Position numbers and translations under genes: made by a program. Below the pieces are notes generated by a model that was not told the DNA's origin, did no database searches, and saw only the letters and a list, made by a program, of their open reading frames with translations. Positions 20,686 through 21,531 of a stretch of 64,000 nucleotides of DNA are shown one piece after another. The stretch is from NCBI GenBank assembly GCA_947259575.1, contig CAMYMU010000051.1:1-64000 (forward strand), in the 5' to 3' direction. Within the stretch, counting starts at the first letter, position 1, and every line of letters starts with the position of its first letter. This DNA comes from an uncultured Ectothiorhodospiraceae bacterium (GTDB lineage: Bacteria; Pseudomonadota; Gammaproteobacteria; UBA6429; Thiohalophilaceae).

Positions 20686-21531
20686 TTAGGGCAAAACACG
20701 TTTAAAAGGTTTAACCGTAACAGAATGATACACCCCTGCTTCGATATATGGATCAGAATCAGCCCACAGTTTGGCTTCTTCTTCAGAATTAAATTCAGCA
20801 ACAATCATTGAACCTGTGAACCCGGCGGTACCAGGATCATCGCTGTCAATGGCAGGAAACGGGCCTGCTATTACCAAACGCCCCTGGTTTTGCAATTCCT
20901 TGAGGCGTTCAAGATGGGCAGGGCGAACACTTAGACGTTTTTCAAGACTATTTTCATTGTCTTCACCAGTGATTTCCTTTACTTCTTTGACGTGCCGGGA
21001 TAAGTAAATAGTTTGTATGATCACAAACACCACAGTCAGACCCAACAGACCAAAGAGTTTAAAGTCGACCCAGGTATCGAAATCAAAGGTTTTTGCTACG
21101 ACTAAGTTTATGACGCCCAATGCAGCAAAAAACAAGATCCACATATAACTGAGTCTGTCCCATACAACTTCTGGTAGATCAACCGATTTTGACATCATGC
21201 GTTTAACGATGTGGCTATGGCCAATGAAGTGACTGCCAAAAAAGACAACTGCAAATAACCAGTTAACGATTGTTACTTTCCAGATAAGGTAGGCTTTGTC
21301 CTGGAAATAAATTGTTGCACCACCAAATATTAATGCCAGGATCAGGACGATGATATGCATTTTTTCAACTTTACGATTTTTAAACCAGTTAATTCCGACC
21401 TGTATAACAGTTGCAGCCATGAGTACTGCAGTGGCATAGATCATTGCCTGCACTTCACCTAGTGGCTCTTTGTAATAATTGAAAGTGATATAGAAAAAGA
21501 CAACAGGAAAAAAATCGAATAATAACTTCAT
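20686..21531 (-). CDS. yciB: YciB (septation/intracellular-septation protein A) fused to a YciI domain
   Basis: Residues 1-175 are YciB/IspA, a polytopic inner-membrane protein affecting envelope and septum formation: [16 protein letters not shown], then about five membrane segments, and [15 protein letters not shown]. Residues 185-281 are a YciI-like domain: [50 protein letters not shown] and VKPFKRVLP. YciB and YciI are normally separate adjacent genes. Here the frame runs straight through [19 protein letters not shown]-like sequence with no stop or new start, and the usual first strand of YciI (an M-x-Y-x-I segment) is replaced by VKEIT. The bolA-like gene sometimes found here is absent. 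Confidence 0.88.

Follow-up and report, generated by a model that had tools for sequence, protein, structure and literature searches.

One reading frame for YciB and YciI in an uncultured Ectothiorhodospiraceae bacterium

YciB/IspA (PF04279) is an inner membrane protein family, and the YCII family (PF03795), to which YciI belongs, is a family of free small proteins that have their own start codon and a first strand with a conserved tyrosine at position 3. The two genes, yciB and yciI, lie near each other in many genomes of the class. To our knowledge, neither protein has a settled biochemical function. In E. coli, YciB is described as acting with DcrB in the maintenance of membrane fluidity (PMC9487459). 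The YciI family is characterised as not thoroughly studied in the account of PMC7641849, which describes YciI fused to a sigma-70 factor domain in Caulobacter vibrioides and to BolA in Coxiella burnetii. The case presented here resembles these two in that YciI is joined to another protein, but the partners differ, neither of them being a membrane protein as described in that account. It was found in a 64,000-nucleotide stretch of contig CAMYMU010000051.1 (the window), which belongs to a draft genome of 70 contigs. In the YciB-YciI protein two known domains are combined in a new way, by an ordinary mechanism; such a fusion was not found in the literature searched, and it may be catalogued in curated domain-architecture databases.

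Two domains in one open reading frame

A sequence-only reading of the window had proposed that YciB and YciI are encoded in one reading frame without a stop between them, and the open reading frame and both Pfam domains confirm it. The frame runs from an ATG to a TAA over 281 codons, with no frameshift or internal stop (Table 1). PF04279 is matched at 199.4 bits (cut-off 28.7, E 6.7e-59) over profile positions 1-175 of 176, which is a whole-domain match, and PF03795 is matched at 92 bits (cut-off 24, E 3.4e-26; 1.3e-26 in the genome search) over profile positions 7-95, the first six profile positions being unmatched. The fused protein is like members of the YciB/IspA family in its whole-domain match and in its start, MKLLFDFFP, which is also that of the aligned relatives, but it adds an enzyme-like C-terminal domain where the family ends. 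Unlike other members of the YCII family, its YciI part is neither free nor provided with its own start, and no usable start or stop codon was seen ahead of this part when the frame was read by eye. No further close copy of YciI is found in the genome; beyond the fused gene, YCII hits only one distant paralog, which lies in a 110-residue frame (locus L088, C25:28213-28488).

Table 1. Features of the yciB-yciI locus and its upstream neighbour, in window coordinates
Feature	Position	Strand	Basis
Fused yciB-yciI ORF, 281 aa	20686..21531	-	ORF and translation
YciB/IspA part, residues 1-183, with membrane helices predicted as far as residue 178	20983..21531	-	PF04279 and AlphaFold
Deletion scar, where same-genus relatives have 18 extra nt	20973..20974	-	Junction alignments
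AAAGGA, probable fossil yciI ribosome-binding site, now coding within VKEVKE	20975..20980	-	Sequence
YCII domain, residues 189-277	20701..20967	-	PF03795
Predicted first beta strand, residues 183-191 (EVKEITGED)	20959..20985	-	AlphaFold (two models) and 1mwq alignment
Remnant of the upstream neighbour of yciB, 115 aa	21543..21890	-	Comparison with relatives

Structures were predicted with AlphaFold for the full protein (26-row alignment, mean pLDDT 84.6, pTM 0.64) and for the YciI part alone (57 sequences, mean pLDDT 91.4, with 73 over the first ten residues). In the full model the pLDDT is 69 at residues 181-190, 49-52 at residues 221-240, and 46 at the end. The predicted first strand takes EVKE from the tail of YciB and ITGED from the YciI part; it recurs in the YciI-only model (E7-15), and the models put it in its customary position. 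Both models align with HI0828 (1mwq), a YCII family protein, over 97 residues at an rmsd of 2.4 and from the first 1mwq residues on, with Z scores of 15.5 for the full model and 16.0 for the YciI-only model; HI0828 is also matched by Foldseek (E 5.2e-9) and by sequence (E 6.4e-30). The TftG dehydrochlorinase (4lbh, 4lbp), which served as the other comparison structure of the family, follows in the fold comparison (Z 11.9 and 12.9, respectively). In these models AlphaFold may have done no more than reproduce the fold of the family. The earlier suggestion that the first strand of YciI had been replaced holds for four of its nine residues, which are new, but the strand is still predicted and the rest of it is in register.

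The joint and its occurrence among relatives

The genome was compared with three relatives of the same genus, of which two, G003 and G001, cover the joint, while the contig of the third, G002, begins inside yciI. Across the joint, G003 reads CAAAGAAGTGAAGGAA-ACTTAAGTGTTATACGCT-ATC, G001 reads CAAAGAAGTGAAGGAA-ACTTAAATGCTGTATGCT-ATT, and the window reads CAAAGAAGTAAAGGAA-ATC. The consensus of the two relatives is GAAGGAA-ACTTAA(A/G)TGYTRTAYGCT-AT, the middle 18 bases of which are absent from the window. These 18 nucleotides comprise the final YciB codon (Thr), the TAA, and the YciI start followed by Leu-Tyr-Ala, and their absence leaves an in-frame gap. With about one base in common between the two ends of the gap, no repeat accounts for it. 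The fusion had been put down to losing the stop together with the start of YciI, and both fall within this one gap relative to G001 and G003; the joint itself, placed near 20950, is real but lies exactly between bases 20974 and 20973. The sequence-only reading had also called for a comparison with relatives, and G001 and G003 do keep the stop and the start, with matching flanks and 18 extra nucleotides. As for the fusion being recent, it can be placed after this lineage diverged from G001 and G003, the latter being 71% identical over the protein, but it is not dated more closely than that.

In G003 and G001 the yciB-yciI pair is arranged stop-to-start, with the TAA followed directly by ATG or GTG, and the pair is probably translationally coupled in these relatives. 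Because the AAGGA of G001 and G003, to which the AAAGGA of the window is aligned, stands 7 nucleotides before their ATG or GTG, the AAAGGA is most likely a fossil yciI ribosome-binding site, ribosome binding being judged here from position. A resemblance of the AAAGGA in the VKEVKE codons to an old ribosome-binding site had been remarked on from the sequence, and its position matches that of the yciI site in the relatives.

The YciB-YciI fusion is a singleton among the genomes examined. The fused protein is matched at E 1e-3 or better in 54 of 58 relative genomes, and in G003 and G019, the two closest matches spanning residues 1-281 (71% and 63% identity), yciB and yciI likewise share a frame and are separated by a single stop; the arrangement is thus not due to chance. 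One of 68 candidate stretches was confirmed as a relative (RI_92), and its joint is the same as that of G019. In the class survey, 109 of 369 genomes were matched at E 1e-50 or better, a threshold that would miss genomes with a more distant YciB. Both parts are spanned by 32 of the class matches (query start 1-29, end 279-281), and a count from the list gave no stop for the window and exactly one for all 31 others. The phylum survey (398 genomes, E 1e-60) matched one other genome, which has one stop, at a threshold too strict for much inference, and the order and family searches covered an identical set of 40 genomes. A YciI that passed the length filter was obtained from 40 of 44 distinct relative loci, and all 40 have a start codon at the position lost in the window (38 ATG, 2 GTG), with the YciI frame open upstream for at most 43 codons in each.

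The YCII-side survey matched 244 of the 369 class genomes. Among the matches listed, 15 frames that extend upstream of YciI exceed 250 residues, and none of the 15 proved to be a fusion. For eight of these the coordinates place YciB in another frame, and inspection of the other seven sequences gave YciB in another frame for six and no YciB within 2.6 kb for one.

Decay, artefact, and the state of the two domains

The reading that we favour, at a probability of roughly two in three, is that an in-frame deletion of 18 nucleotides joined yciB to yciI and that one membrane-tethered protein is made, with a cytoplasmic YciI domain. The main rival to such a functional fusion is relaxed selection on the operon, in which deletions would accumulate in the genus and the fused product would be without YciI function; we consider this somewhat unlikely, and the evidence for and against it comes from the neighbouring gene and from both parts of the fused frame.

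The gene upstream of yciB has 250 residues in G001 and 261 in G003, and its remnant in the window has lost 297 and 99 nucleotides. In G001 this gene is whole, but yciB has shrunk to a frameshifted stub of some 70 bp (L032 1601-1673, C90), followed by an intact yciI. From the remnant in the window and the collapsed yciB of G001 it follows that the operon, consisting of the upstream gene, yciB, and yciI, loses pieces in the genus, and both observations favour decay. However, the G001 genome is a draft with 86% completeness and 7% contamination, in which the stub may be an assembly fault, and the two losses in the upstream gene are multiples of three, so that all three losses in the window are in frame. 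This state is consistent with selection to keep the operon translated throughout and counts against decay, as do the 281 codons free of any stop or frameshift. In the family, the upstream gene is an open frame of 241-294 residues in 24 of 40 genomes, has no match in 14, and is a remnant in the present genome and in G058; no Pfam match above the cut-off was obtained for the remnant or for the whole genes that correspond to it in G001 and G003.

The 40 relatives agree to at least 90% at 46 YciI positions, and the window keeps 44 of these, which is a point against decay. His 206, Asp 191, and Asp 260, each present in 40 of 40 relatives, are retained, as the conserved His and Asp of the YCII family, and the two aspartates are aligned with Asp residues of TftG. 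The two conserved positions that differ, Met1 and Tyr3, are both in the lost stretch, where Met-Leu-Tyr-Ala of the relatives is replaced by Glu-Val-Lys-Glu before Ile-Thr-Gly-Glu-Asp continues in register. The family's Tyr3 (40 of 40 relatives) is thereby Lys 185 and Ala4 is Glu 186; these substitutions could harm the sheet or the active site, and the replacement of Tyr3 is a point in favour of decay.

The rates of change bear on both sides. Counts of unique changes in YciI, window to G003, are 12:5, 11:7, 8:6, and 14:4 with four outgroups, of which only the last reaches a chi2 of 5.6, uncorrected; the mean identity to other relatives is 62.9% for the window and 68.3% for G003 with the first strand included, and the tip branches of the tree are 0.265 and 0.225. 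For YciB, the corresponding counts are near equal (21:18, 15:13, 11:11, and 12:11, four outgroups), as is the mean identity to other relatives (49.2 for each), but the tip branch of the window is 0.315 against 0.157 for G003, which disagrees with the equal counts. The weak excess of YciI changes and the longer window branches in both parts would be expected from decay, whereas the near-equal YciB counts would not, and our confidence in a functional fusion was set slightly lower because of the YciB branch length. On these sequence comparisons, the YciI domain has not decayed, but the window may be evolving somewhat faster. Since the age of the deletion is not fixed, conservation of YciI is no proof of selection on the fused form.

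It is quite improbable that the 18 bases were dropped in assembly or consensus and that the organism has two ordinary genes. The draft state of the genome and the fact that the fusion is known from one genome of the species lend this some weight, but an in-frame gap of 18 nucleotides with about one shared base at its ends is atypical of sequencing errors, and three losses in the window that all preserve the frame are not what random assembly faults would be expected to leave. Furthermore, no frameshifts stand out in the ORFs collinear with G003. Such a counterpart exists for most ORFs between 1.7 and 22.8 kb. Where these align, and leaving aside the joint and the remnant of the upstream gene, the indels of at least three residues in the window are a single deletion of 11 residues and five insertions of 4 to 30 residues. 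At about 22.84 kb the collinearity with contig 29 of G003 stops, and the ORFs to the right are without a close counterpart in the 60 kb compared.

Production of a separate YciI from an internal start behind the fossil ribosome-binding site, to which the retained AAAGGA might point, is very improbable indeed and was rejected on reading the frame by eye: no in-frame ATG, GTG, or TTG occurs between the AAAGGA and Leu 213, a TTG codon that lies within the domain and past His 206, and a nearby ATG is out of frame.

Predicted membrane topology and a proposed tethered YciI domain

The favoured fusion would begin with an in-frame deletion of 18 nucleotides in the stop-to-start neighbours yciB and yciI that turned them into one gene; the single ORF, its exact difference from the relatives, and the kept conserved positions are direct observations. 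One product would follow, which we infer is made, folds, and keeps both jobs, with YciB as its integral membrane part and the last helix about four residues from the ferredoxin-like domain of YciI and its predicted first strand. The YciI domain would then be cytoplasmic and tethered to the inner membrane, with one domain per YciB, as the C-terminus of YciB is predicted to be on the cytoplasmic side.

This topology is itself a prediction. Six long helices are predicted up to residue 178, with best 17-residue hydropathy values of 1.49, 1.91, 2.62, 1.98, 2.42, and 2.42. Loops 2-3, 4-5, and the tail have 4, 3, and 3 Lys+Arg residues, whereas loops 3-4 and 5-6 have one each, in rough counts that depend on loop borders set by us, the tail having 3 acidic residues as well. 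A long YciB variant of about 226 residues or more, in which an insert separates the last two helices, occurs in 13 of 36 YciB proteins of the relative loci. The insert in loop 5-6 contains two cysteines in all four of the long proteins aligned (L036, L040, L049, and L025; four of the 13), which would fit a periplasmic loop. Together, the Lys+Arg counts and these cysteines suggest a cytoplasmic C-terminus for YciB, on the side where YciI is expected to act.

The locus presents an operon fusion with readable steps, namely a fossil ribosome-binding site, a lost stop, and a lost start. The fusion is of mild interest in that it would pin YciI to the membrane. An unlikely further reading is that of a natural "Rosetta stone", in which YciB and YciI form one membrane-bound unit with YciI chemistry at the inner membrane face and YciB as its anchor or channel; if this were true, the fused form would only make an existing complex permanent. 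As a natural case, seen in a single genome, the fusion hints that YciB and YciI cooperate at the membrane, and it provides a testable construct.
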